Shown piece after piece: positions 29,774 through 57,364 of a stretch of 64,000 nt of DNA (position 1 is the first letter of the stretch; each line of letters opens with the position of its first letter). The translations under genes and the position numbers were made by a program. The notes under the pieces were generated by a model. That model was not told where the DNA came from. It saw only the letters and a program-made list of their open reading frames with translations, and made no database searches. The stretch lies in contig NZ_FNDE01000005.1 of NCBI RefSeq assembly GCF_900099925.1, positions 62,001-126,000 of the forward strand, written 5' to 3'. This DNA comes from Aneurinibacillus thermoaerophilus. GTDB taxonomy: Bacteria; Bacillota; Bacilli; Aneurinibacillales; Aneurinibacillaceae.

Positions 29774-30757
29774 CTATCCGTGTTCCTTCAAAAGCTCGGC
29801 CAATCTCGTCAGCTTTTTCTTTCTCTCGAGCCGCACCTGCATGGCCTGATCTACGGTAATAGCCAAAAAACGGCACTTCGACATTGGCCTGGATTGAGCA
29901 ACAATGTCCAAATCCGTGCTGATTACGGTGCCGATTGTGACAAATCCCCCACCCGACGTGGCATCGTTGAGTAAAATAATCAACTCCTCTTCGTTTGGAA
30001 CCATAAGCGCCCCGATCGGATAGGCAAAATCGACGACATTTGAGAAACCATCACCGGCTCCGAACGGGGGCTCATGCTCCTTGAAAGCGATTTTCGCTCC
30101 GGTATAGCGATATGCCACCTGATTCGATTCCGTCGATACTGTCCATTCCGAGTTCAAAAAGGCTCTGATTCCCTCATCGCTCACCCGGTGTCCGGACAAC
30201 CCCATAACCACACGAAGGTCTTGAAAATTCTTGTATTCAGGAATAAATTCAGAAGGGAGCCGTTTTCCGACCTGTTTAAAGGCTCCTGGGAGCGGTTCGC
30301 CGATCTCCAATTCATCTCCAACATCCAATTTTCTCCCTTGAAAACCTCCAAGCCTGCTCAGGGTATAAGTAGAACGACTTCCAAGAACCTCTGGAACTTG
30401 AATCCCTCCAGAAACACAAAGATAGCTTTTTACCCCTTGTTTACAAAACTTGAAAGAAAGAATATCTCCCTCGTTTACTTGAACGGGTTCCCATAGGGGA
30501 ATCGGCTGCTGGTTAAGATACGCCTCCATCGGAGCTCCCGTTATAGCAATGACCGTTTTTTTCAAAAACTCAACCTTTGGGCCAAGCAAGGTCATCTCCA
30601 GCCCGGCAAATTCCAACGGATTACCAAGCAGCAAGTTACCCACCATAAAAGAGTACTTGTCTGCGGCTCCTGAAGGAGGAAGCCCAAAATGATAATAACC
30701 TTGGCGTCCTATGTCCTGTACAGTGGTCCATAAACCGGGTTCCAATATGCGTAGCAT
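29774..30757 (-). CDS. pxpC: KipA/PxpC family biotin-dependent carboxyltransferase-type subunit (copy 1)
   Basis: A 327-residue KipA/AHS2-family protein, the second half of the carboxyltransferase-like unit found in urea carboxylase and in 5-oxoprolinase PxpABC. Visible blocks are GLWTTVQDIGRQGYYHFG at the N-terminus, SGAADKYSFMVGNLLLGNPL, SRSTYTLSRLGGFQGRKL and NDATSGGGFVTIGTVI. With PxpB and PxpA such proteins cleave 5-oxoproline with ATP. It begins directly after the pxpB stop (TGAATG). This copy travels with the sigma-54 regulator and lacks its own PxpA, so it either shares PxpA with the upstream operon or acts on a related lactam. Confidence 0.88.
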   Translation of the reverse strand: MLRILEPGLWTTVQDIGRQGYYHFGLPPSGAADKYSFMVGNLLLGNPLEFAGLEMTLLGPKVEFLKKTVIAITGAPMEAYLNQQPIPLWEPVQVNEGDILSFKFCKQGVKSYLCVSGGIQVPEVLGSRSTYTLSRLGGFQGRKLDVGDELEIGEPLPGAFKQVGKRLPSEFIPEYKNFQDLRVVMGLSGHRVSDEGIRAFLNSEWTVSTESNQVAYRYTGAKIAFKEHEPPFGAGDGFSNVVDFAYPIGALMVPNEEELIILLNDATSGGGFVTIGTVISTDLDIVAQSRPMSKCRFLAITVDQAMQVRLERKKKLTRLAELLKEHG

Positions 30758-31642
30758 TCAGAATCCCTCCATCAATTCCCGAATATATACCTTCCCCTTT
30801 GTCACATATTCCTGCGGCGAAAACTCGATGTATTTCATTCGATAGCGATACGTTCCCTGCTTCACTTCCTCTACGATCCGGCTATATTCCCGCTCATCAA
30901 CGGAGCGATACTTCCAAATATCTCCCGGTCGCGCCAAAAAATAAGTATCCTCCAAATCTACCAGACGTTTTTCATTATCGTAGACAGGAACTGCTGATAT
31001 GCCGATTAACTGATAGCTCCCCGGGCCATTGACAGGATAAACTACAGTAAAAGCTCCGCCAACTCCTACAGCTTGTCTGGGAGTGTCCGTTCGAGGACTT
31101 AGATATTTCGGAACCTGAATAATTTCTTGCGGATGCAAACCCAGTGGAAACCCCCAAGCCGTCCCAGGCAGAAAGCCAACCATCGTAATTAAATAGGGCA
31201 TGCGTGTATGCGCCTCGATAAACGCTTCTTTTTCTCTGAATCCGTTTACCTTCATAGCAAACTCGAAATTAGAAATATCAGGTTCTTGATGACGGCTTTT
31301 AAACCGCCTAGAATATTCCCGCGTAATCGGATCATCATACCAGACAGGGATTTCTACCATACGAACCGATAAATTCAACTCTGCCGGATTGCTTTTCGTA
31401 ATATCGATGTCCTTCAAATAATCAAGCAAATCCCTAGCTGGTATAATCTCCGGATTATAACGGACCAAATACGAAGCGTTGGAAGGAACGATTTCGATAA
31501 TACCCGGGATATTGCGCTTCCTTAATTCATTGACGATAGCCAATGCTTTAAAATTGCTTTCTGCGCTCATATCACGGGAAATTTCCGCGTAAATGTATTC
31601 ATCTCCACCAAAATCAAACCGCGTTTCCGGCAATGTAAACAA
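30758..31642 (-). CDS. pxpB: KipI/PxpB family subunit (copy 1)
   Basis: A 294-residue KipI/AHS1-family protein. Signature strings are FGGDEYIYAEISRDMS near the start, VPSNASYLVRYNPEII, MVGFLPGTAWGFPLG near residue 165, and PRTDTPRQAVGVGGAFTVVY. It pairs with the PxpC-type protein that follows. The start is TTG 31642 with GGGAGG 7 nt upstream. It lies 15 nt after the sigma-54 activator, so regulator and PxpBC copy 1 form one transcript. KipI in B. subtilis also inhibits kinase A of sporulation, a function that cannot be excluded or supported here. Confidence 0.88.
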   Translation of the reverse strand: MFTLPETRFDFGGDEYIYAEISRDMSAESNFKALAIVNELRKRNIPGIIEIVPSNASYLVRYNPEIIPARDLLDYLKDIDITKSNPAELNLSVRMVEIPVWYDDPITREYSRRFKSRHQEPDISNFEFAMKVNGFREKEAFIEAHTRMPYLITMVGFLPGTAWGFPLGLHPQEIIQVPKYLSPRTDTPRQAVGVGGAFTVVYPVNGPGSYQLIGISAVPVYDNEKRLVDLEDTYFLARPGDIWKYRSVDEREYSRIVEEVKQGTYRYRMKYIEFSPQEYVTKGKVYIRELMEGF

Positions 31643-31656
31643 ATGGCTACCTCCCT

Positions 31657-33723
31657 TTATTTAAACAACTTATTCATTCGTCTGCTAATGGTGGCCGGAC
31701 TTACTCCCAGCACTTCCGATACTTTAGCCGCTGTTCCATATTTCTTGAGCCCAAGCTGAATCAATTGACTTTCCAGTTCGGCTACGGCCTCCTTAAGCGG
31801 CATCAGCTCAAACACCATCGTTTTCTTGCGCTTCCCCCCTGCTTCACCGTACAGCACCCTCAGTACATCTTCACGCTGGATGAATTCCTCGCGGCTCGTT
31901 ACAATCAACCGTTCAACAATATTCTGCAACTCCCTAACATTCCCCGGCCAATCATAGTTTTCCAACACTTCAAGCGCCCCCGGAGAAAATCCTTTTTCCA
32001 TCTGGTACGTTCGGTTAAACTGTTGAGAGAAATAAAGAACCAGGGAAAAAATATCTTCCGTACGTTCCCTTAAGGGAGGAATATGAATCGGAATAACATT
32101 CAGCCGATAGTAAAGATCTTCTCGAAATTCCCCCTGCTCCATCATATCCTTTATATTTTTGTTGGTTGCCGCAATCACCCTGACATCCACAGGAATGGTC
32201 TGTACACCGCCTATCCGTGTCACTTCCTTCTCCTGCAGAACCCGAAGCAACTTGACCTGCATGTTTAATGATAACTCGCTGATTTCATCAAGGAAAATCG
32301 TCCCCCGATGGGCCATTTCGAAAAGACCTGGCTTTCCTTTCTGATCCGCGCCGGTAAAGGCTCCCTTCTCATAACCAAACAATTCGCTCTCGATCAGATT
32401 CTCAGGAATCGCCCCACAATTAACCCGAATGAGGGGATAATCCTTGCGGCGACTCGCTGCGTGAAGGGTACGGGCAAACACTTCTTTCCCCACCCCTGAT
32501 TCTCCCTCGAGCAGAACGGTGGAGTCGACCTGAGCGATCCGCTTCACTTCCTCGACTAAGTCCTCCATAATACGAGAGCGATAAATTAAAGGTTTATCAG
32601 CACTGTATCGGTTCATCAGCTGGTCCAATTCCTGTTTGTATGTATTCGATTTCTTAGTAACTCGCTTCAATTCCTCTTGCAGTTGATTCGTTTTCGTAAT
32701 ATCGCGCGAAAGAACGACGACTTTTTCCAGTTTCCCTTCATGATAAACAGGAGTTGCGACAGACCAAACTTTCCGTCCATGAACAGTGTCCTGAATCATG
32801 GTTAGCTTCTTTTTTTTCTTTATGCATAGATCGACGATATTAGGCCGGAATACTCCCTTGCGTTCGAATTCAGCAACATTTCTACCAATGACCTTCTCAG
32901 GCTGATCCAAACCCCAAAACTCCTGCAAAAATGTACCTGCCAACCGAATCACTTCACCTTTTGGATTGACGACAAGAATTTGCTCATGGGAGGAAGAATA
33001 AACCGCCTGCAAATCAGAGTACAAATTACGCACAAATTCCAATTCTTGAACAGCTTCCTCAAACGCTTCACGAAGAAAAAAAACATGTACCAAACCTGTA
33101 ATCCGACCGTCGATTCGGAGCGGAGAGAAATTCCCGCTGATTTGCTTGAAGTTAATTGAACTGTTCACGCTGATAAATGTCTCTCCTTGAATCACTCGAT
33201 CCAAATCCTTATCCATAGTAAGTAGCGTTTTGTAATTACGAGACAAAAGAAACGAGCGAGACAGCCCCAGAATATTCTCTGCTGTTTCATTAATGAATTC
33301 AATTTCAAAACGAGTGTTTGTTCTGATGATTCCTACCCCGGCCCCGTCTAAAATTTGATTCATGTGTCTAAGTTGCAGTTCATTCATCTGGTGGCGCGCT
33401 TGCTGCACCAAACTGTAACCGATGATTTCTCCACCCGGATTTACCCCTAGTACAACAGAAATATTGTGATAGTACTCAACAGGGTGCATGTAAGGAACTT
33501 TGAGAATATCTTTTCGATACTGGATGGGTTGCTGAAGGTCTGGTGTATGTCGCAATTGTTCCAACAGAGAATCCGTATGGATGAAGCCAACAATATTTCC
33601 CTTATCCATGACAAAAGCAATATCGGCTCCCCGCTCGTGCATTTCACGCAGAACATCCTGAATCGTACTTTCCCGGTTCACCACCGCCGAAATCGGCCGC
33701 AGAATTTGTTTCCAGGTAATCAC
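31657..33723 (-). CDS. sigma-54 dependent activator with CBS and PAS sensor domains
   Basis: About 688 residues. In order: a CBS-like pair (residues 5-120; STIQDVLREMHERGADIAFV), PAS 1 (about 125-230), PAS 2 (about 245-355), and an AAA+ domain with Walker A GESGVGKE, the sigma-54 contact GAFTGA intact, and Walker B GTIFLDEISEL. A Fis-type helix-turn-helix ends the protein (GTAAKVSEVLGVSPATISRR). It should activate sigma-54 promoters of the pxp genes after sensing a ligand or nucleotide. GTG 33732 overlaps the ribosome site; GTG 33723 lies 8 nt after AGGAGG and is preferred. Identical palindromes before its own gene and before the 38-kb operon are its probable sites. Confidence 0.93.
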   Translation of the reverse strand: MITWKQILRPISAVVNRESTIQDVLREMHERGADIAFVMDKGNIVGFIHTDSLLEQLRHTPDLQQPIQYRKDILKVPYMHPVEYYHNISVVLGVNPGGEIIGYSLVQQARHQMNELQLRHMNQILDGAGVGIIRTNTRFEIEFINETAENILGLSRSFLLSRNYKTLLTMDKDLDRVIQGETFISVNSSINFKQISGNFSPLRIDGRITGLVHVFFLREAFEEAVQELEFVRNLYSDLQAVYSSSHEQILVVNPKGEVIRLAGTFLQEFWGLDQPEKVIGRNVAEFERKGVFRPNIVDLCIKKKKKLTMIQDTVHGRKVWSVATPVYHEGKLEKVVVLSRDITKTNQLQEELKRVTKKSNTYKQELDQLMNRYSADKPLIYRSRIMEDLVEEVKRIAQVDSTVLLEGESGVGKEVFARTLHAASRRKDYPLIRVNCGAIPENLIESELFGYEKGAFTGADQKGKPGLFEMAHRGTIFLDEISELSLNMQVKLLRVLQEKEVTRIGGVQTIPVDVRVIAATNKNIKDMMEQGEFREDLYYRLNVIPIHIPPLRERTEDIFSLVLYFSQQFNRTYQMEKGFSPGALEVLENYDWPGNVRELQNIVERLIVTSREEFIQREDVLRVLYGEAGGKRKKTMVFELMPLKEAVAELESQLIQLGLKKYGTAAKVSEVLGVSPATISRRMNKLFK

Positions 33724-33757
33724 GTCATACACCTCCTACTAACAAACGAAATCATTT

Positions 33758-33812
33758 CCTCTAAATTATAACAAATAATCTTTCAAAATTGAAATTAATT
33801 TCATAAATGAAA
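33758..33812 (-). promoter_or_regulatory. promoter and tandem palindromes before the sigma-54 activator gene
   Basis: TTTCAAAATTGAAA (33781-33794) and TTTCATAAATGAAA (33799-33812) are palindromes 18 bp apart. On the minus strand TATAAT lies 17 bp after TTCAAT within the first palindrome, so a housekeeping promoter overlaps the sites. Binding would repress the activator gene itself. The first palindrome with its flank is identical over 20 bp to 38327-38346. Confidence 0.6.
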
Positions 33813-33830
33813 TTATATTAGAAATAAATA

Positions 33831-33852
33831 GGCTGTTGATCATCAACAGCCC
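33831..33852 (-). terminator. terminator overlapping the pxpA stop
   Basis: GGGCTGTTGAT and ATCAACAGCC form a tight hairpin that includes the pxpA stop codon and is followed on the minus strand by TATTTATTTC. It separates the 38-kb operon from the activator gene. Confidence 0.7.
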
Positions 33853-34619
33853 ACATTCAAAACTTCTCTAATAGGAGCAATCTGAACCCCGTTTTCACGA
33901 AGAGCCTCTACAATGGTTTTGGCCAGTTGTGAGGCTCCTGGCGTGTCCCCATGAATGCAGATCGTATCCGCTTGAATGGCTATCTCTTCACCATCATGTG
34001 TCATAACTTTTCCTTCTTTGACCATCCTAACCACACGCTGGGCCATCTCATGATAATCCTTAATCTGTGACCCTTTTCTCGTTAAAATAATCGAACCGGT
34101 CGTCGTATGCTCGCGATCTGCATAAGCTTCCCGTGCGACCGGAATCCCCATTTTTTTTGCTTCCTCTAGTACAGCGGAATTGTTCAAGGCAAAGATAACG
34201 GTTTGCGGATCAACTTCCGCAATCGCTTCTAGAATCGCCCGGGCCAGCGCCTTATCTTCCATAGCTTTCATATATAATGCGCCATGGGGTTTACAATGCT
34301 GAATTTTTATGTTTGCCGCCACGGCAAATTCGCGCAGGGCTCCTAATTGATAGGTAACATAATCCTTAACTTCTGCCGCTGTACATGTCATATAGCGGCG
34401 ACCAAACCCTAGCAAATCCGGAAAAGCAGGATGCGCCCCGATGCCGACTCCGTATCGTTTGGCCAGCTCCACCGTTTTCCGCATTACATGCGGATCCCCT
34501 CCATGAAAGCCACAGGCAATATTGGCGGATGTAATGTACTGCATCATTTCTTCATCATTACCCAACTCATACAAACCGAAACTTTCTCCCATATCACAAT
34601 TCAAATCCACTTTATGCAA
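33843..34619 (-). CDS. pxpA: 5-oxoprolinase subunit PxpA (LamB/YcsF family)
   Basis: A 258-residue LamB/YcsF protein. Family motifs are DLNCDMGESFG at the start, SANIACGFHGGDPHVM near residue 30, GAHPAFPDLLGFGRR near residue 57 and CKPHGALYMKAM near residue 109. In PxpABC this subunit carries the lactam-opening activity with PxpBC supplying ATP-dependent activation. TTG 34619 has AGAGGTGG 6 nt upstream. It is the last gene of an operon with a biotin carboxylase, a biotin carrier and a KipI/KipA pair, an unusual setting suggesting a biotin-linked variant of the reaction. Confidence 0.92.
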   Translation of the reverse strand: MHKVDLNCDMGESFGLYELGNDEEMMQYITSANIACGFHGGDPHVMRKTVELAKRYGVGIGAHPAFPDLLGFGRRYMTCTAAEVKDYVTYQLGALREFAVAANIKIQHCKPHGALYMKAMEDKALARAILEAIAEVDPQTVIFALNNSAVLEEAKKMGIPVAREAYADREHTTTGSIILTRKGSQIKDYHEMAQRVVRMVKEGKVMTHDGEEIAIQADTICIHGDTPGASQLAKTIVEALRENGVQIAPIREVLNVGC

Positions 34620-34645
34620 CTCGTACCACCTCTTTTCAGGAATAG

Positions 34646-35986
34646 TCAGACAAGCAATTTCTCAAGGAAACGTGTCGTATAATGTCCGTCCCGGAAATCT
34701 TTGTCCTGAACAATCTTTTGAAGCAGGGAAACGTTCGTCGTCAGACCTTCCACCGCGATTTGTTCCAGGGCCTTTTCCATCTTGTGGATGGCATCGGAAC
34801 GATCGCGTCCATGCGTAATGATTTTCCCAATCATCGGGTCATAAAATGGTGTGACTGTACTGCCTTCGATCACGCCAAAGTCCAGGCGCACCTCCTCCTT
34901 CGGCAAAGCTAACCGCTTCAAAACGCCCGGCGAAGGAAAGAAAGTTTTCGGGTCCTCGGCATATAGTCTGCATTCGATAGCATGACCTGTTTTTCGGATT
35001 TCTTCTTGCTGAAATGGCAACTTTTCTTTGGCAGCAAGACGGATTTGCAATTCTACCAAATCAAGACCGGTGATTTCCTCCGTCACCGGATGCTCAACTT
35101 GCAGGCGTGTATTCATCTCCAAGAAGTAAAAATTTCGATTTTCATCGAAAATGAATTCCATCGTCCCCACATTGGAATATCCAATGTGTCTTGCTCCCCG
35201 CAAGGCGGTCTCTAACAGCTTAGCTCTGGTTTCTTCATCCAGAAAAGGAGACGGGCTTTCTTCAACGACTTTCTGGTTTCTTCGCTGTACCGAGCATTCC
35301 CGCTCAAATAAGTGTACCGCATGGCCATAGGCATCACAGGCCACCTGTACTTCAATATGACGTGGGCCAGAAATCCATTTCTCCAAAAATAAGGTCCCAT
35401 CACCGAAATACGACTGAGCCCGTTGCATGGTAGACGCAAACGCTTTTTGCAGTTCATCGGGATTATGGATCACCTGCATCCCAATCCCTCCACCACCAGC
35501 GCTCGCTTTTAGCATAAGCGGGTACCCTAACTGGTCGGCGATAGACAACGCTTCTGTAACAGAATCAATTTTTCCATCCCATCCAGGAACCACTGGCACC
35601 CCCGCCTGCTGCATCTGACGGCGCGCCTCAATCTTACTGCCCATCAACTCGATCGTCCTAGCATCCGGACCGATGAACACAATTCCCTCTTCTTCACAGC
35701 GACGAACAAAACGCGGGTTTTCCGACAGAAACCCGTATCCGGGATGAATCGCGTTTGCCTCTGTTTCTTTGGCAACCTGGATCACCTTCTCAATGTCCAG
35801 ATAGCTCTTTTTGACCTGAGCTGGACCGATGCAAACAGCCTCATCCGCCTCCTCGACAAAAGGCGCGTCCATATCCGCTTCTGAATAAACAGCTACAGTT
35901 CGAATCTTCAACCGCTTACAGGTTCGGATAATCCGTCTGGCAATCTCTCCTCTGTTGGCAATTAAAATTTTGTCAAAATAACTCAT
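34646..35986 (-). CDS. accC: biotin carboxylase subunit (AccC paralogue)
   Basis: A 446-residue ATP-grasp biotin carboxylase. The N-terminal domain is KILIANRGEIARRIIRTCKR, then HPGYGFLSENPRF; the glycine-rich ATP loop ASAGGGGIGMQVI is near residue 160; EMNTRLQVEHPVTEEITG near residue 290 carries catalytic residues. It carboxylates the biotin carrier using ATP and bicarbonate. It is 67 bp after the carrier gene and 26 bp before pxpA. In this operon no fatty-acid or propionyl carboxyltransferase is present; KipI and KipA are homologous to the carboxyltransferase part of urea carboxylase, so it probably serves them rather than fatty-acid synthesis. Confidence 0.93.
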   Translation of the reverse strand: MSYFDKILIANRGEIARRIIRTCKRLKIRTVAVYSEADMDAPFVEEADEAVCIGPAQVKKSYLDIEKVIQVAKETEANAIHPGYGFLSENPRFVRRCEEEGIVFIGPDARTIELMGSKIEARRQMQQAGVPVVPGWDGKIDSVTEALSIADQLGYPLMLKASAGGGGIGMQVIHNPDELQKAFASTMQRAQSYFGDGTLFLEKWISGPRHIEVQVACDAYGHAVHLFERECSVQRRNQKVVEESPSPFLDEETRAKLLETALRGARHIGYSNVGTMEFIFDENRNFYFLEMNTRLQVEHPVTEEITGLDLVELQIRLAAKEKLPFQQEEIRKTGHAIECRLYAEDPKTFFPSPGVLKRLALPKEEVRLDFGVIEGSTVTPFYDPMIGKIITHGRDRSDAIHKMEKALEQIAVEGLTTNVSLLQKIVQDKDFRDGHYTTRFLEKLLV

Positions 35987-36012
35987 ACTCTACCCCCATG
36001 TTACGTGTTGGA

Positions 36013-36042
36013 ATAGGGATTCAAACAAACTTGAATCCCTAT
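36013..36042 (-). promoter_or_regulatory. intercistronic hairpin between biotin carrier and biotin carboxylase genes
   Basis: ATAGGGATTCAA and TTGAATCCCTAT are perfect 12-bp arms with a 6-nt loop inside the operon. There is no T run afterwards, so it is better read as an mRNA-stability or processing element setting the carrier-to-carboxylase ratio than as a terminator. Confidence 0.5.
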
Positions 36043-36053
36043 CAGCATCACTG

Positions 36054-36299
36054 TTACCTTTTGATCACGGCTATTTCCTGTCCGGCATCCACGATTTCTT
36101 CGTTTTCCACACAAAAACGTTCAAGGACGCCGTCTGATTCCGCTTTGATTTCATAAAAATTCTTCATAACTTCGATTAAGCCGATAGTATCCCCGACTTT
36201 CACGGTGTCTCCTTCCTTTACATATACATCCTGGTCCGGAGCGGGTCTGCGGTAAAACACGCCAGGAATCGGGGATAGGATGGATTTGCTTTCTGCCAC
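36054..36299 (-). CDS. biotin carboxyl carrier protein, short form
   Basis: An 81-residue single biotinyl domain. The biotinylated Lys lies in LIEVMKNFYEIKAES, a variant of the usual EAMKM motif, preceded by VKEGDTVKVGDTIG. It lacks the Pro/Ala-rich N-terminal arm of housekeeping AccB, so it is a minimal carrier. GTG 36299 has GGGAGG 8 nt upstream. It lies between the KipA-type gene and the biotin carboxylase gene and should shuttle carboxybiotin between BC and the KipI/KipA unit. Lipoylation is unlikely because the residue after Lys and the neighbours fit biotin domains. Confidence 0.88.
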   Translation of the reverse strand: MAESKSILSPIPGVFYRRPAPDQDVYVKEGDTVKVGDTIGLIEVMKNFYEIKAESDGVLERFCVENEEIVDAGQEIAVIKR

Positions 36300-36304
36300 A
36301 GTTC

Positions 36305-37288
36305 TTACCTCCCATTCTCTGAAATTACTTGTTTTATTTGCGCAATCTTGTCCTTCATTTCCCGCCTCGCCCGCAGAGCTTCTTCGAGGCTGACAGACAC
36401 GAAACGCACCTTTTCATTCGTCTTAATTTGTGCCATCCGATTGAGATCGGCGCTAATAATCGTAGCAATAGTAGCATAGCCGCCGCCCGTTACCGCGTCA
36501 TTCAACAAAGCGATTGGTTCCACTCCATCCGGAACTTGGATGGAGCCAATGGGATAGCCTAAATCAACAACATTCGAAGGATTGCTTCCGGCACCGAAAG
36601 GCTGCTCCCGGGGGACAAAATTCAAGCGTTCACCCTTGAAGCGGTACCCGACACGGTTCGCTTCCGGCGTTACAGTCCAATCCAGGGACAGGAAGCGCTC
36701 CTTGCTTTCCTCTGTTAAGCGGTAACTGCAAAGCCCCATAAGCACGCGGATTTCATAAGACTTGGAGAATCTTGGGATAAAAGTCTCCGGAATGCGGGTT
36801 CCCGCACTGATCTTCCGGCGGATGTCGCTGCCGATGCAGAGTCCATCCCCGGCTTGCAGGGCGCGCCCCTCAAAACCGCCAATTCCACACAGCGTATAGG
36901 TTGAACGAGAGTCCATAATAACTGGAACATTAATTCCACCAGCTACAGCAAGGTAAGCCCTCGCCCCCTGCCTGATAAAATCAAAAGATAGCTGGTCACC
37001 GGCTTTAACAGCGATTGTCTCCCACATCGGGGCCGGCTGTCCATTAATCTTCGGGGGGATTTCGCCGCCCGTCACCGCAATAACAGAATCGCGCTGGAAT
37101 TCGAGCGTCGGACCCATATATGTAATCTCCAAAGCCGCCGCATTCTCGTCATTTCCTACAAGTAAATTGGCAATAACGTAAGAATATTTGTCCATCGCGC
37201 CAGAAGGCGGCATTCCAATTTCGTAGTAGCCGATTCGGCCCTGATCCTGAACCGTCGTTTGAAGCCCGGGGGTTATCACTTTAATCAT
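36305..37288 (-). CDS. pxpC: KipA/PxpC family carboxyltransferase-type subunit (copy 2)
   Basis: A 327-residue KipA/AHS2 protein, colinear with copy 1 but clearly diverged. Blocks are GLQTTVQDQGRIGYYEIG, SGAMDKYSYVIANLLVG, SRSTYTLCGIGGFEGRAL, GAGSNPSNVVDLGYPIG and NDAVTGGGYATIATII. It overlaps the pxpB copy 2 stop as ATGA. Followed by a biotin carrier, biotin carboxylase and PxpA, this copy can form a complete four-part biotin-dependent enzyme like a split urea carboxylase. Old duplication within the locus, or independent acquisition, would explain the two copies. Confidence 0.88.
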   Translation of the reverse strand: MIKVITPGLQTTVQDQGRIGYYEIGMPPSGAMDKYSYVIANLLVGNDENAAALEITYMGPTLEFQRDSVIAVTGGEIPPKINGQPAPMWETIAVKAGDQLSFDFIRQGARAYLAVAGGINVPVIMDSRSTYTLCGIGGFEGRALQAGDGLCIGSDIRRKISAGTRIPETFIPRFSKSYEIRVLMGLCSYRLTEESKERFLSLDWTVTPEANRVGYRFKGERLNFVPREQPFGAGSNPSNVVDLGYPIGSIQVPDGVEPIALLNDAVTGGGYATIATIISADLNRMAQIKTNEKVRFVSVSLEEALRARREMKDKIAQIKQVISENGR

Positions 37289-38154
37289 ACATATAACCTC
37301 CCTAACACGTTTTCAGAAAACTGTTTCGGATTCTCGATAACATCATGGGGCGTAAAAGTAATTTCCGTCGTTAAATAACGGAAAGTACCTGCTTCCACCT
37401 GTTCCCGGATCGATTCGAACTCTTCCTTTGTCACACTGCGATAACGGAAAATATCTCCCTGCCTGGGAAAAGTCATAGAATCTGCAAAATCCGGCAACCG
37501 CTGCTCCTTGTCGTAAATAGGAGCGGCCGCTATGCCAAACAACTGATATCCGCCTGCTCCCTGCACCGGGTAGATAACGGCAAAGGCTCCGCCAAAGCCA
37601 AAAGCTCTCTCCGGCGTATATGTACGCGGACGAACATATTTCGGCACCTCGATTTGCTGCTCCCGGGGCACCATCTGATAGCACCAAGGCAGTCCAGGGA
37701 CAAACCCGACCATAGACACTAGATAGGGATAATCGGTGATAGCCTGGATCAACTCTTCCTTGGATGCGAACCCATTAATGCGAGCAGCATATTCCAGATC
37801 GGTAGAATTCGGGTCTTGGTGACGGTCTCTGAAGCGCATCAATGCTTCGTGTGTCCACGGATCTTCAAACAAGATCGGGACGTCAACAATGCGCGCGGAT
37901 ATTTCAAAGTCATCGATCGAAACAGAGTGTTCCAAGTCCTTCAATTCCTTAATAAGCACATCCGGATGCAACTGGTCGGGATCAACCCGAATCATATAGG
38001 AAGCATTGGAAGGACAAATATCCAGGATACCCGGAAGCTGTTTTTCTCTCAATTTTCGAGTGATGGCCATGGCTTGGAAATTCACTTCAAGGCTCATTTC
38101 TTCCGCCAGTTCCACAAAGACAAATTCATCTCCGCCATACTCATAACGTACCAT
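37285..38154 (-). CDS. pxpB: KipI/PxpB family subunit (copy 2)
   Basis: A 289-residue KipI/AHS1 protein. Blocks are EYGGDEFVFVELAEEMSL near the start, ICPSNASYMIRVDPDQL, MVGFVPGLPWCYQM near residue 165 and RTYTPERAFGFGGAFAVIYP. Compared with copy 1 it differs in the loop after the GF-PG motif. The frame opens at TTG 38175, but ATG 38154 lies 9 nt after GAGGTG and is preferred. First gene of the sigma-54 operon; a -24/-12 promoter sits about 70 bp upstream. Confidence 0.88.
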   Translation of the reverse strand: MVRYEYGGDEFVFVELAEEMSLEVNFQAMAITRKLREKQLPGILDICPSNASYMIRVDPDQLHPDVLIKELKDLEHSVSIDDFEISARIVDVPILFEDPWTHEALMRFRDRHQDPNSTDLEYAARINGFASKEELIQAITDYPYLVSMVGFVPGLPWCYQMVPREQQIEVPKYVRPRTYTPERAFGFGGAFAVIYPVQGAGGYQLFGIAAAPIYDKEQRLPDFADSMTFPRQGDIFRYRSVTKEEFESIREQVEAGTFRYLTTEITFTPHDVIENPKQFSENVLGRLYV

Positions 38155-38218
38155 CGTTCGTTTCACCTCACTCAAGAAATGGCATAGCTTCTTTTTGACT
38201 TACTCCATAAAAATTCAA

Positions 38219-38236
38219 TAGCAAAAACGATACCAA
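38219..38236 (-). promoter_or_regulatory. sigma-54 (-24/-12) promoter of the pxpBC-accBC-pxpA operon
   Basis: The minus strand reads TTTGGTATCGTTTTTGCTA. The invariant GG and GC are exactly 10 bases apart and the TTTTTGC half matches the -12 consensus. It lies about 100 bp downstream of the tandem palindromes at 38333-38366, the expected enhancer distance, and upstream of the first gene of the operon. Confidence 0.75.
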
Positions 38237-38326
38237 ATAGACAAAATATAATAAATAAATTTTATATACAGTTAATTCAAAGCATTGGCTGGCCTATCCT
38301 ATTCGAAACGAACCAAACACCCAAGC

Positions 38327-38366
38327 ATAATCTTTCAAAATTGAAAAATATCTTTCAAATTTGAAA
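38327..38366. promoter_or_regulatory. tandem palindromic enhancer sites for the sigma-54 activator
   Basis: TTTCAAAATTGAAA (38333-38346) and TTTCAAATTTGAAA (38353-38366) are perfect or near-perfect palindromes 20 bp apart. The first, with its left flank, matches 33775-33794 over 20 bases. The remainder of 38155-38426 carries the -24/-12 promoter and no gene. Confidence 0.7.
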
Positions 38367-47128: not shown

Positions 47129-48487
47129 CTATAAGTGTTTTTTCAACACGCGCTTCAATGTGCTCACAATAAATGCTACATCTTCGTCTGTAACGGATAG
47201 TGGTGGGGAGAGGACAATTACGTTATTAAAGCCCGCTACAGTATCGCCGTTTCTGCCAACGATCAGACCATTCGCTTTACAATCCGCGATAATCTGGCCT
47301 ACTTTCGCCGGTGCGGCAGGCTCTTTCGTTTTCTTATCTTCTACCAGTTCAATGCCAAGCAGAAATCCAAAGCCGCGAATATCCCCGACCAAGGGATGAT
47401 TCTCCATTTCCTTCATTTCTTCCTGCAAACGTTCACCGAGCACACGTGCACGTTCGATTAAATTTTCCTGCTCCATAATCTCCAGGTTTTTCAAAGCGAG
47501 CGCGCAAGCCGCCGGATTGCCGCCAAACGTATTAACATGACGCAGATAACCGTATTCGTCCGATGCTTTGAACACCTCATAAATATCCCTGCGAACCGCC
47601 GTCGCAGAAAGCGGAAGGTAACCGCTTGTCAAGCCTTTGGCCATTGTCACAATGTCCGGGTGTACACCAAAATGCATATGACCGAATTTCTTGCCTGTAC
47701 GCCCGAATCCACAAATCACCTCATCAATAATTAGCAGCACACCGTATTTATTGCAAATCTCCTGCACTTTTTCCATGTAAACCGGATGCGGAACGATAAT
47801 ACCGCCACCTGTAATCGCGGGCTCCATAATCACGACGGCCACTGTTTCCTTGCCTTCCCAAATTATCGTTTCTTCAATCGCTTGGGCGCATTGGATATTA
47901 AATTCTTCTATACTTTGCCCAGCAGGGCGACGGTAACTATCCGGGGGACGAACGTGAATGAAACCGGGTGCCAGGGGTTCATACTTATATTTCCGCACTG
48001 CCTGGCCCGTCGCCGCCAGAGCACCCATGGAGTTTCCGTGGTAAGCACGGTAGCGGGAAATAAACTTGTAGCGGCTCGGCTCGCCGTTTTGCTCATGATA
48101 TTGTCTCGCAATTTTAAAGGCTATCTCGTTCGCTTCAGAACCGCTGTTAGAGAAAAAAATAACATATTCTCCTTCGAGCCATTCATTTAGTTTTTCAGCC
48201 AGTTGAATGGCGGGAAGATGGCTTTGTGTGAGCGGAAAATACGGCATCGCTTTTAATTGCTCATACGCTGCTTCCGCCAGCTCTTCCCTTCCATATCCGA
48301 CATTCACGCACCATAATCCGGCCATTCCATCCAGATAACGGTTTCCATTGATATCCGTGATCCATGCCCCCTTCGCTTCTACAGCTACCGTAGGAGGAAC
48401 CTTTTCATTATAAGGCGTGATATGGTGCCACAAATATTTTCGGTCGCTGGCAATTACATCCTCAACTTTGTTTTGCAACATAGACAT
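47129..48487 (-). CDS. class III aminotransferase (beta-alanine/omega-amino acid:pyruvate type)
   Basis: A 452-residue PLP enzyme. Features are YLDGMAGLWCVNVGYGREEL near residue 52, SNSGSEANEIAFKIARQYHE (phosphate loop) near residue 112, the PLP-contact LLIIDEVICGFGRTGK near residue 255 and the Schiff-base Lys in MAKGLTSGYLPLSA near residue 285. It belongs to the omega-aminotransferases that take the amino group from beta-alanine, GABA or taurine to pyruvate. GGAGGTG precedes the ATG. It directly follows the acylating semialdehyde dehydrogenase gene, so beta-alanine to malonate semialdehyde to acetyl-CoA is the most natural pathway. Exact amine unproven. Confidence 0.9.
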   Translation of the reverse strand: MSMLQNKVEDVIASDRKYLWHHITPYNEKVPPTVAVEAKGAWITDINGNRYLDGMAGLWCVNVGYGREELAEAAYEQLKAMPYFPLTQSHLPAIQLAEKLNEWLEGEYVIFFSNSGSEANEIAFKIARQYHEQNGEPSRYKFISRYRAYHGNSMGALAATGQAVRKYKYEPLAPGFIHVRPPDSYRRPAGQSIEEFNIQCAQAIEETIIWEGKETVAVVIMEPAITGGGIIVPHPVYMEKVQEICNKYGVLLIIDEVICGFGRTGKKFGHMHFGVHPDIVTMAKGLTSGYLPLSATAVRRDIYEVFKASDEYGYLRHVNTFGGNPAACALALKNLEIMEQENLIERARVLGERLQEEMKEMENHPLVGDIRGFGFLLGIELVEDKKTKEPAAPAKVGQIIADCKANGLIVGRNGDTVAGFNNVIVLSPPLSVTDEDVAFIVSTLKRVLKKHL

Positions 48488-48503
48488 ATTTTCACCTCCT
48501 CAG

Positions 48504-49973
48504 TTAAAACGAATAGCGCGCGGTGACCATCTTTTTACGAGTATAGAATTCAACCCCATCGCGGCCGTTGGCATGAAGATCTCCATAGAACGAATTCTTA
48601 TAACCTGAGAATGGGAAGAAAGCCATCGGCGCGGGCACTCCGAGATTGATGCCAATCATGCCCGGATCGATTTCATCACGGAGCTGACGTACCGCTTTCG
48701 CGCTGTTCGTATAAAGACATACACCATTGGCAAATTTAGACTTATTGGTAAGCTCAATCGCCTCATCCAAATCTTTTACGCGGACAACGGAAAGAACAGG
48801 GGCAAAAATCTCGTCTTTCCAGATGGACATCTCCGTTGTTACGTTATCAAAAATTGTAGGACCTATAAAATAGCCTTGACCATTTACCGCTGCATCTTTT
48901 CTTCCGTCACGGACAAGCAATGCGCCTTCCTTTTCGCCCGCTTCGATATAACCGATCGTGCGCGCTTTATGCGAATCGCGAATAACAGGTCCTAAGAAAA
49001 CGCCTTTTTCAAGCCCGTTTCCAATCTTGATTTTATCCGCTTCCTCTTTCAGGCGGCTTACGAGTTCATCCGCGATCTCTCCGACAGCCACTACGACAGA
49101 GCAAGCCATGCACCGTTCACCGGCGGAACCGAAAGCGGCGCTGATGATATTTTTGGCGGCATAATCCAAATCAGCATCCGGCATAACGATCGAATGGTTC
49201 TTTGCGCCGGCAAGAGCCTGCACACGTTTTAAATTCGCGGCTGCTGTTTTATATACATATTCCGCTACAGGCTGTGAGCCGACAAACGATACTGCTTGAA
49301 TGTCCGGGTGTTCCAAAATACCGTTTACCACATCATGCGCTCCATGCACAATATTTAACACTCCATCCGGAAGCCCGGCTTCCATAAGCAGTTCGGCAAG
49401 ACGGTTCGCCAAAAGCGGCGTACGCTCCGACGGCTTTAGCACAAACGTATTTCCGCAAGCAATCGCCAGCGGGAACATCCAGCACGGAACCATCATCGGG
49501 AAATTAAACGGTGTAATACCGCCTACAACCCCGAGTGGATAACGGTACATACCGGACTCGATCCCAGCGGCAATATCAGGAAGCTGGGTGCCCATCATCA
49601 GCGTAGGAGCTCCCGCCGCAAACTCCACGCATTCAATGCCACGCTGCACTTCGCCATACGCTTCCTCGTAGCTTTTGCCATTCTCAATCGTAATGAGACG
49701 AGCCAATTCCTGCCAATGTTCAACAAGGAGCTGCTGATACTTGAAGAGAATCCGGGCGCGGCGCGGCACCGGTGTTTTCTTCCATGTTTTAAACGCTTCC
49801 TTCGCCGCTTGTACCGCTCTGTCTAAATCTTCCCGTGAGGATATCGGAACATAAGCAATAATTTCGCCTGTTGCTGGGTTAGGTACTTCCTCGTAACGAG
49901 AAGTAGCAGCTTCCACCCATTTACCACCTACAAAATTTTTCAATGTCATTACTTTATCTTTTGCAATTGTCAT
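48504..49973 (-). CDS. mmsA: CoA-acylating (methyl)malonate-semialdehyde dehydrogenase
   Basis: A 488-residue aldehyde dehydrogenase of the MmsA/IolA group: NAD+ and CoA convert malonate or methylmalonate semialdehyde to acetyl- or propionyl-CoA with CO2. Seen are [20 protein letters not shown] near residue 150, [32 protein letters not shown], and the catalytic Cys in [18 protein letters not shown] near residue 285, the MmsA-specific context. The frame opens at 49988, but ATG 49973 lies 8 nt after GGGGGTG. It is divergent from the PucR regulator and 16 bp before the aminotransferase gene; together they handle beta-amino acid or similar carbon. Confidence 0.93.
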
Positions 49974-50011
49974 AAAACACACCCCCATTATTCTTACATC
50001 TGTTTACATGC

Positions 50012-50055
50012 TGTAGCGTTTCTTTCACTATAGCAAAGCTTATGAAACGCTTACA
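50012..50055. promoter_or_regulatory. inverted repeat in the mmsA-pucR divergent promoter
   Basis: TGTAGCGTTTC (50012-50022) and GAAACGCTTACA (50044-50055) are inverted repeats, one base from perfect, separated by 21 bp in the 170-bp divergent gap. Candidate PucR-type operator; the GCGTTTCA core also resembles catabolite-responsive sites, but with the wrong spacing. Confidence 0.5.
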
Positions 50056-50143
50056 CTAGACAAAATGTCAAAAATAATACCATTTATTTTAAACTTATAA
50101 TAACATTAAAAATAAAAAATGAATGGAATGGGGATGAATCGCA

Positions 50144-51835
50144 GTGCATTCTGAATTTATACTCACAGTAAACGATGTATTAAAGCGCCCCCTATTTCAA
50201 GAAGCACGCATCATTGCCGGAAAACACGGGTTGCATCGCCGTATCCGCTGGGTTCATATTCTTGAAACCTCTCATTTTGACACCCTAATTCACGGAGAAG
50301 AAATGATTCTGGCAACCGGCATTGGTTTTCAATCGGATGGACAACGTTTCGCATCCTATCTGCAAAAATTAATAGACGCGAACGTCTCCTGCTTATGTTT
50401 AGAAATCGGGCAATACGTAGAGTCCGTTCCTGACGAGATGATTAAGCTTGCCAACAAGCATAACTTTCCGCTGATTATCTTTCTGAAAACGGTCCGCTTT
50501 GTGGATATCACGCAGGATTTGCACCCGTTAATCATTAATCGCCATTATCAAATGCTACAAAAGCTTGAAAGTGTTTCAAGGGAATTTCACCGTCTATCCC
50601 TTACTTCTCAAGGTGCTTTGAATGTTTTAAAATTGCTGCACGACAGTACGAAAACGCAAATCGTTTACCTCCCAACCCAAGGAAAGCCGGTTTTTATACC
50701 CACCTTGGAGCCGATTGCCCAAAATGATTGGCTGACTTTTCTTTATGGACATTTGCAAAAATTATGCCAGCATCCTTTCAATCTATCTTCTTATCGTTTA
50801 AAAAAGGAAGACAAAACCATGCTTCTACAGCCTGTAGGTGCCATGGGACAAGTCTGGGCATTAATCGCGATGGCGAGCAAACAAGAGCCGAGCGAATATC
50901 ATGATTTGTTATTGGATTCGGCCTCTCTTTCTATCGCCCAGGATTTATTACGAAAGCGTTATATGGAAGAGCGAAAACTCCATGCCGAAAATTTGTGGGT
51001 GAATGATTTATTGCACAATCGACTCAACGAGGAAGAGCATATCAAAACACTTATTGGCCCGGATTACAACAAACTCAACAAAATGAACTACTGGGTTTGC
51101 TTATTTGAAATTGAGCACATTCCCAATGAGAAGGAAAGCATTTCAGAGGAATCGCTTGAATCGATAGGGTTCCATCTTTCTTTGCTATTGCGTTCCGCTT
51201 TTGAACAGCATGCCTTTCGTCCATTCATCACTCTTAAAAATAACCAGCTTGTAGTCATGGCCCTTGATTTGACATCATTCGGGCAATCAAAGAAAAAACT
51301 CCAAACCAAAGAAAGACTACAACAAGTATTAGACTATATCAAAGAGGCAAACGCAAACCAAAAAATCGGCCATTTTCATCTGCGCATCGGAGTCGGACAA
51401 TCTTATCGCCAGTTTAAAAATGCGCATCTCAGTTACCAGGAAGCAACGCAGGCGCTTTTGCTGTACCCTTATTATCAAAAGCCGCTAATTTTTTATGATG
51501 AACTGGGCGTGTTTCAGTTGCTTATTCATCTTCAGGAAGGTAATATTCTTGAATCATTTGTGCATCGTTACCTCGGCCCATTAATTGAAGAAGATCGGCT
51601 TAAAGGAAGCGATCTCCTTTACACGTTGAAGGTATATCTAGAAAACAACGGCTCAAAAAAGCTTGCGGCCGAAAAACTTTATATCGTTAGACAGTCTCTC
51701 TATTATCGACTAGAAAAAATCAAAGAACTGCTTGGACAAGATTTTATGTCTCCAGAAAACCAGTTGGCGCTCCAATTGGCGCTGCGCGCATATAAGTTGC
51801 TATACCCGGATAAATCAGGCGATATCACAACATAG
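50144..51835 (+). CDS. PucR family transcriptional regulator
   Basis: A 563-residue activator. The N-terminal PucR purine-catabolism-type domain starts LTVNDVLKRPLFQEARIIAG and includes RRIRWVHILETSHFDTLIHG. The C-terminal PucR helix-turn-helix is LKVYLENNGSKKLAAEKLYI, then VRQSLYYRLEKIKELLG. Between them lies a GGDEF-like central region. It starts with GTG 50144 after GGGGATG. Divergent from mmsA and the aminotransferase, it probably activates them in response to a degradation intermediate. No purine genes are nearby, so the family name should not be taken as function. Confidence 0.9.
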   Translation: MHSEFILTVNDVLKRPLFQEARIIAGKHGLHRRIRWVHILETSHFDTLIHGEEMILATGIGFQSDGQRFASYLQKLIDANVSCLCLEIGQYVESVPDEMIKLANKHNFPLIIFLKTVRFVDITQDLHPLIINRHYQMLQKLESVSREFHRLSLTSQGALNVLKLLHDSTKTQIVYLPTQGKPVFIPTLEPIAQNDWLTFLYGHLQKLCQHPFNLSSYRLKKEDKTMLLQPVGAMGQVWALIAMASKQEPSEYHDLLLDSASLSIAQDLLRKRYMEERKLHAENLWVNDLLHNRLNEEEHIKTLIGPDYNKLNKMNYWVCLFEIEHIPNEKESISEESLESIGFHLSLLLRSAFEQHAFRPFITLKNNQLVVMALDLTSFGQSKKKLQTKERLQQVLDYIKEANANQKIGHFHLRIGVGQSYRQFKNAHLSYQEATQALLLYPYYQKPLIFYDELGVFQLLIHLQEGNILESFVHRYLGPLIEEDRLKGSDLLYTLKVYLENNGSKKLAAEKLYIVRQSLYYRLEKIKELLGQDFMSPENQLALQLALRAYKLLYPDKSGDITT

Positions 51836-56572: not shown

Positions 56573-57364
56573 TTATGCACGCAAGTAATCAAAAACAAGT
56601 TTTCCCACTTGAGCGATCACCCGTTGGCCAGAAGCATTATCAGACAGTTCTGTTGTTAAAACAGCTACATAAGCATACTTTCCATTAAAACAGAAAATGC
56701 CAGCATCATGTTCGGTTCCTGGAAGTTCTCCCGTTTTATGAGCAAGAGTAGCATGAAGGGAAAAACCGCCTGTAATCAAGGCAGGCAATTTTGTATGAAA
56801 CTGTTGGTTTAAAAGAGTATCATAAACAGCTTTTTTGTTTTCTTCATTTAATATACTTCCTTCTACTATCTCCTTCAAAAAGCGAACGATATCACTGGCC
56901 GATGTCATATTATCCTTACCTCGTTTGACCGCCTCATGATCCATCATCATCCGTACCAAAACGGTTTGTCCACAGTTTAAATCAGCCGCTAACTGATTCA
57001 CAGTATCCATGCCAACATTGCGAATGACCATGTTGGTTGCCGTATTATCAGAAATCATGATCATAAGCGAAATCAGATCTTTTAATGTTAAGCGGAGTTC
57101 AGGTGAAAGATGAGAAAGAACGCCCATCCCTCCTACCCTATCTTCGGGTAGGAAGGAATATTCACTGAACAAGTTCAATTTACCTTCTTGTGCTTGACGA
57201 TATGCTGCAATCATGATTGGAATTTTAATCAAACTTGCAGACGGAAGCGGATCATTTGCATTAATCAAAATGTGGCCCTCATCTGTTTCAATGGCAACAC
57301 TTACTTTTCCATCGACTTGTGACACTATTCTCTCTACATCTCTTCTAAGTTTCTGCCAGTCCAT
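56573..57364 (-). CDS. cytosolic class A beta-lactamase-fold serine hydrolase
   Basis: A 263-residue serine hydrolase with the class A beta-lactamase motifs: SASLIKIPIMIAAYRQA (Ser-x-x-Lys near residue 43), ISDNTATNMVIRNVG (SDN near 105) and AHKTGELPGTEHDAG (KTG near 213). A DHEA segment near residue 145 may supply the Glu of the omega loop. Unlike secreted penicillinases it has no signal peptide, so it should act in the cytoplasm. GAGGTGG precedes the ATG. It is the fourth gene of an operon with an epimerase, an amidohydrolase and a permease, so it probably cleaves an imported amide or ester, possibly a lactam or D-amino acid compound. Antibiotic resistance is not the leading hypothesis. Confidence 0.85.
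   Translation of the reverse strand: MDWQKLRRDVERIVSQVDGKVSVAIETDEGHILINANDPLPSASLIKIPIMIAAYRQAQEGKLNLFSEYSFLPEDRVGGMGVLSHLSPELRLTLKDLISLMIMISDNTATNMVIRNVGMDTVNQLAADLNCGQTVLVRMMMDHEAVKRGKDNMTSASDIVRFLKEIVEGSILNEENKKAVYDTLLNQQFHTKLPALITGGFSLHATLAHKTGELPGTEHDAGIFCFNGKYAYVAVLTTELSDNASGQRVIAQVGKLVFDYLRA

Follow-up and report, generated by a model that had tools for sequence, protein, structure and literature searches.

In K. lactis urea amidolyase (KlUA), the carboxyltransferase probably uses Lys1605 as its general base (PMC5770610); this residue corresponds to K1012 of the K. lactis urea carboxylase (KlUC). For the caprolactamase CapAB, a carboxylated-lactim mechanism was among three options considered (PMC8453981). 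To judge from its entry title and chain names, PDB 9yx5 contains the KipI-KipA pair MSMEG_0435-MSMEG_0436 bound to the M. smegmatis long chain acyl-CoA carboxylase complex, the alpha3 (biotin carboxylase, BC) subunit included, and is a physical precedent for a KipI-KipA pair joined to a biotin enzyme. A literature search, whose coverage did not extend to key 5-oxoprolinase papers, found no characterised biotin-linked Pxp system. Here we describe a candidate gene set for such a system in a 64,000-nucleotide stretch of Aneurinibacillus thermoaerophilus DNA (the window; contig NZ_FNDE01000005.1), where B1 (pxpB-like), C1 (pxpC-like), a biotin carboxyl carrier, BC and the PxpA-type gene A follow one another in that order on the minus strand (38175-33843). 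The gene set appears to encode a widespread variant of the urea-carboxylase-type enzyme and is usually annotated as 5-oxoprolinase genes and without assigned function. We consider it rather probable that it encodes a split urea-carboxylase-type biotin enzyme, which N-carboxylates a lactam or related amide that the PxpA-like protein then opens; biotinylation, bicarbonate- and biotin-dependent carboxylation and complex formation are predicted here.

Organization of the operon

The five genes, and the residue on which much of the comparison turns, are as follows.
37285-38175, minus strand: B1, PxpB/KipI-like subunit of urea-carboxylase type, domain CT_C_D (Pfam PF02682)
Within B1, minus strand: putative catalytic Lys179, numbered from TTG 38175 and placed by alignment to KlUC K1012
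36305-37288, minus strand: C1, PxpC/KipA-like subunit, domain CT_A_B (Pfam PF02626), with the urea-carboxylase-specific AG..PSN..D..Y loop (233-245)
36054-36299, minus strand: biotin carboxyl carrier (PF00364), EVMKN motif
34646-35986, minus strand: BC (PF00289/02786/02785, all three domains over cut-off)
33843-34619, minus strand: A, PxpA/LamB-YcsF hydrolase of the Lys-class group (PF03746)

The intergenic distances from B1 through C1, carrier and BC to A are -4, 5, 67 and 26 bp, tight gaps that are consistent with a single operon; with the Pfam matches, they bear out the preliminary description of this DNA, which had placed pxpB, pxpC, carrier, BC and pxpA in one operon. It had no B2-C2: past A, the cluster extends into a regulator gene (REG) and then a second subunit pair, B2 and C2 (33732-29774). 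The start of B1 is probably ATG 38154, with a better ribosome-binding site than TTG 38175. Lys46 of the carrier, in the EVMKN motif, aligns with the biotinyl lysine of E. coli biotin carboxyl carrier protein, and the active-site motifs of BC are intact, including RRNQKVVE and EMNTRLQVEH. No Rfam match was found in the window between 28000 and 52000.

Kinship to urea carboxylase

B1 aligns to residues 837-1107 of KlUC, with Lys179 at K1012. Lysine occupies this general-base position in both B1 and B2, and arginine in canonical PxpB and KipI. When 140 PxpB-type sequences were aligned, two were incomplete at the site; among the 138 classified, the 70 with lysine were all long or urea-carboxylase sequences (three urea carboxylases included), and the 68 with arginine were all canonical. 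A tree of 109 sequences has one Lys/Arg change, and its Lys clade, made up of the urea carboxylases, the B1 group and the B2 group, is supported by an SH-aLRT of 99. The PxpA and PxpC trees divide along the same Lys/Arg line. More B positions are common to urea carboxylase and the Lys class and rare or absent in the Arg class, as is a loop in C with respect to the canonical class. The predicted fold of B1 points the same way: the B1 model matches urea carboxylase 3va7 best (Z 19.4 over 271 residues), against Z 11-14 over about 190 residues for canonical PxpB/KipI. B1 and C1 both fail the equivalogs of the canonical subunits (PxpB TIGR00370, 75.7 bits vs. a cut-off of 145.55; PxpC NF045499, 253 bits vs. 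500), and the subunits match only parts of the single-chain urea carboxylase equivalog TIGR02712, below its 1303.85-bit cut-off.

These results bear on the possibility of a PxpABC-type ATP-dependent lactamase, in which B1-C1 would phosphorylate the lactam directly and A would open it, with BC and carrier as mere co-residents of the operon. The gene set does overlap pxpABC, A scores 347.6 bits against a cut-off of 226 for the NCBIfam PxpA subfamily NF003814, and BC and carrier are also present in some canonical clusters. However, B1 and C1 lie well below the PxpB and PxpC cut-offs, an ordinary pxpB-pxpC-pxpA operon is found elsewhere in the genome, beside an IclR-type regulator gene, and the Lys-class signature, the grouping with urea carboxylase, the near-constant linkage of BC and carrier and the apparently separate recruitment of BC (both below) all argue against this explanation, which we regard as unlikely. 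From these relationships the enzyme appears to group with urea carboxylase and not to be a version of 5-oxoprolinase; its earlier characterization as a relative of 5-oxoprolinase calls for this refinement.

Conservation of the gene set and lineages of biotin carboxylase

Gene content was compared between 42 Lys-class B1 loci and 68 canonical loci; the loci share descent, and similarity to C1 or B1 was the means by which some were found, so that p-values overstate their independence. BC is present at 38/42 Lys-class loci vs. 6/68 canonical ones, the carrier is present in 41/42 vs. 3/68, and a CoxL-type Mo hydroxylase in 27/42 vs. 0/68. The opposite holds for genes encoding an NRAMP transporter (0/42 vs. 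26/68) and a YcsI-type hydro-lyase (0/42 vs. 28/68). All 27 Bacillales loci have the carrier, 26 have A, and 23 have an adjacent BC. The gene set is also found, reordered, on plasmids of Rubrobacter, haloarchaea, Rhizobium, Diaphorobacter, Sulfitobacter, Thioclava, Methylobacterium and Agrobacterium. The arrangement, for which a survey across genomes had been proposed, is widespread beyond A. thermoaerophilus, in many bacteria and haloarchaea.

In the BC tree, which does not divide along the Lys/Arg line, the Bacillales operon BCs form one clade (support 98), apart from A. thermoaerophilus's own AccC; proteobacterial and Rubrobacter operon BCs form a second group and haloarchaeal ones a third, the deepest nodes being weak. 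This suggests that different BCs were recruited separately to the same carboxyltransferase-PxpA core, which argues that BC is functionally needed. It is very improbable that BC and carrier belong to an acetyl- or acyl-CoA carboxylase of general function and lie here by chance: NCBIfam does label them acetyl-CoA carboxylase subunits, but a housekeeping accB-accC pair is encoded separately in the genome (along with a further BC gene and pyruvate carboxylase), no acyl-CoA carboxyltransferase gene is present at the operon locus, and the operon BC is of its own lineage, with a linkage conserved across phyla.

The Arg-class pxp clusters of Lactiplantibacillus, Paracoccus and Klebsiella plasmids and of one further genome (G023) have BC in every case and the carrier in 3/4; they adjoin NRAMP and mostly YcsI-type hydro-lyase genes.

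Promoter, putative operators and regulator

Three regulatory features accompany the operon.
38220-38235, minus strand: sigma-54 -24/-12 promoter TGGTATCGTTTTTGCT, upstream of B1
38333-38366, unstranded: two palindromes TTTCAAWWTTGAAA, candidate upstream activator sites, upstream of B1
33781-33794, unstranded: third palindrome TTTCAAAATTGAAA, upstream of the REG gene

Sigma-54 sites with at least 9/11 matches, including GG and GC, are found upstream of 22/42 B1 homologues (mean 0.8 and maximum 3 in shuffled sequences) and of only 1/60 canonical pxpB genes. The genome contains rpoN, and REG carries the GAFTGA motif, so that, by sequence, a -24/-12 promoter, an activator and the sigma factor of a sigma-54-dependent operon all appear to be present. 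Both the sigma-54 promoter and the dedicated regulator of the preliminary description are supported by these observations. The region that it covered ends at the palindrome TTTCAAWWTTGAAA, of which the 3.66 Mb genome has exactly three copies, two before B1 and one before REG; a reversed control pattern has zero copies in the same genome. The two before B1 are likely upstream activator sites. REG fails the PrdR equivalog NF041552 (433.9 bits vs. a cut-off of 795).

The REG-B2-C2 triad

Downstream of A, the cluster continues with three further genes.
31657-33732, minus strand: REG, sigma-54-dependent activator with CBS, PAS, AAA+ (GAFTGA) and HTH domains
30758-31642, minus strand: B2, second PxpB-like subunit, Lys179 kept
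29774-30757, minus strand: C2, second PxpC-like subunit

B2 and C2 directly follow REG in 20/20 REG genes, and REG is directly upstream of 20/21 B2-class genes. In four genus-mates, the triad adjoins permease-like genes and HyuA/HyuB genes with kinship to caprolactamase (538 bits for NCBIfam CapA, below the cut-off of 1000), and in one of the four (G004) it is present without a dedicated carrier or BC. The triad is found next to ATP-dependent lactamase-type genes of two kinds that are unrelated to each other. Possibly, REG-B2-C2 is a signalling module, in which a carboxyltransferase-like pair would be reused as a sensor of lactam or carboxy-lactam that controls the sigma-54 activator. This is reminiscent of KipI, which acts on the kinase KinA. 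It is at least as likely, since B2 keeps Lys179 and most other positions common to B1 and urea carboxylase, that B2-C2 would be a second working carboxyltransferase.

A cluster in another genome (G002, locus L115) has the order REG-B-C-B-C-A without adjacent BC or carrier; on contig C6 of that genome, a PxpB-like match, a carrier-like frame and a stop-containing BC fragment lie together. On contig C7 of A. thermoaerophilus (L163, 5172-9202), caprolactamase-like HyuA/HyuB genes have a 10/11 sigma-54 site and no adjoining REG triad.

Neighbouring genes and the substrate

A belongs to the PxpA family, which opens 5-oxoproline, and this hints at a lactam. That PxpA opens a lactam here, as had been proposed, is plausible on the basis of its homology and of neighbouring genes. 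The CoxL-type Mo hydroxylase, which CoxG and XdhC/MocA-type maturation genes often accompany (loci L030-L056, L057, L059, L145), could convert cyclic imines or N-heterocycles to lactams. In Aneurinibacillus sp. BoGa-3 (L038), a gamma-aminobutyrate (GABA) transaminase above cut-off lies beside B1, behind its own 11/11 sigma-54 site, and in Candidatus Pseudogracilibacillus (L048), a GABA transaminase homologue and a near-cut-off succinate-semialdehyde dehydrogenase (SSADH) homologue lie nearby. At five more Bacillales loci, a different class III transaminase occurs with an aldehyde dehydrogenase. These neighbours fit, without proving, a pathway from lactam through omega-amino acid and semialdehyde to acid. 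Our best guess, a tentative one, is a gamma-lactam such as 2-pyrrolidinone.

The same neighbours bear on the possibility of a split urea or guanidine carboxylase, in which the PxpA-like protein would replace allophanate hydrolase. The domains and the catalytic lysine are the same, and no characterised relative is nearer than urea carboxylase. However, the three urea carboxylases cluster together outside the split-enzyme clade, no allophanate hydrolase or UAAP genes lie beside the examined split operons (the Pantoea uca locus has UAAP1/UAAP2), and the genes that do lie there encode Mo hydroxylase, class III transaminases and semialdehyde dehydrogenases, leaving this a slightly poorer prospect than direct phosphorylation by B1-C1.

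Elsewhere in the window (47129-51835), a class III aminotransferase and an MMSDH-type dehydrogenase are divergent from a PucR-family regulator and have the look of beta-alanine-type catabolism. This aminotransferase and the semialdehyde dehydrogenase (47129-49988) were rejected as candidates for the downstream pathway because they appear to form a separate PucR-linked cluster, 9 kb away. Positions 56573-57364 encode a Beta-lactamase family protein (Pfam Beta-lactamase2).

Proposed mechanism and its weight

From the genes, motifs, lineages, linkage and promoter-like and operator-like sites observed at these loci, we infer a complex that would work by N-carboxylation of a lactam. BC would carboxylate the biotin of the carrier, using ATP and bicarbonate, and B1-C1, as the carboxyltransferase with Lys179 as general base, would transfer this carboxyl group onto the substrate, a small lactam or a cyclic amide of similar kind, at its amide nitrogen. 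By analogy with allophanate formation for urea, the N-carboxyl group may ease hydrolysis of the ring amide. A, acting second, would open the ring, and the resulting carbamate would lose CO2 to give an omega-amino acid. REG, binding the TTTCAAWWTTGAAA sites, would activate the operon from the sigma-54 promoter.

Good support for the earlier proposal, in which BC, carrier and the KipI/KipA-like pair make up a biotin-dependent enzyme, comes from Lys179, the grouping with urea carboxylase, the linkage of BC and carrier, a dedicated PxpA lineage, a dedicated BC lineage in Bacillales and the assembly named in PDB 9yx5. Several observations weigh against N-carboxylation followed by ring opening. Adjacent BC is absent from 4/27 Bacillales loci, and A is missing at the locus in Aneurinibacillus aneurinilyticus (L030) and in two relatives (L112, L131). 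The Mo hydroxylase, whose gene has the strongest linkage to the operon, is not encoded in the A. thermoaerophilus genome and so cannot be an obligatory partner. Residues 179-211 of the B1 model have a pLDDT below 50, not surprisingly for a model built without C1 from a shallow alignment; the single-chain model was for this reason dropped as a means of siting Lys179 in the active site, and the fold match alone was used. BC also lies beside canonical Arg-class clusters (L132, L150, L151, L152), and the mycobacterial pair named in 9yx5 is itself Arg-class, with a carboxylase shared with acyl-CoA enzymes, so that the Lys class is not alone in associating with a biotin enzyme. Because of these clusters and this pair, lysine is to be read as the mark of a subfamily, not of biotin use in itself; the choice of Lys or Arg was rejected as too strong a test of biotin use, BC and carrier being present in some Arg-class clusters.

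If N-carboxylation by the split enzyme is correct, bacteria and haloarchaea have a common biotin enzyme that activates amides in this way and is now labelled as 5-oxoprolinase/allophanate hydrolase subunits. It would add a new substrate class for biotin-dependent carboxylases, a one-residue rule (Lys or Arg) by which to split a large, misleadingly annotated family, and a route by which lactams, among them nylon and pyrrolidone monomers, could be broken down.

Comparison with known systems

Caprolactamase CapAB resembles the proposed system in its ATP-dependent opening of a lactam, and its homologues adjoin the REG-B2-C2 triad, but it is built from unrelated protein families and has no biotin (PMC8453981). 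The PxpABC 5-oxoprolinase and KipI-KipA share the A, B and C subunit families with the operon; unlike B1, canonical PxpB is shorter and has arginine for lysine, and canonical loci often include an NRAMP transporter and a YcsI-type hydro-lyase, usually without BC or carrier. The urea carboxylase and urea amidolyase of K. lactis (KlUC, 3va7; KlUA, 5i8i) share with the operon the BC, carrier and carboxyltransferase domain families, the catalytic lysine with its surrounding residues, and the carboxyltransferase loop. In contrast to urea carboxylase, the operon enzyme is distributed over four polypeptides, groups separately, and has a PxpA hydrolase as its partner in place of allophanate hydrolase.

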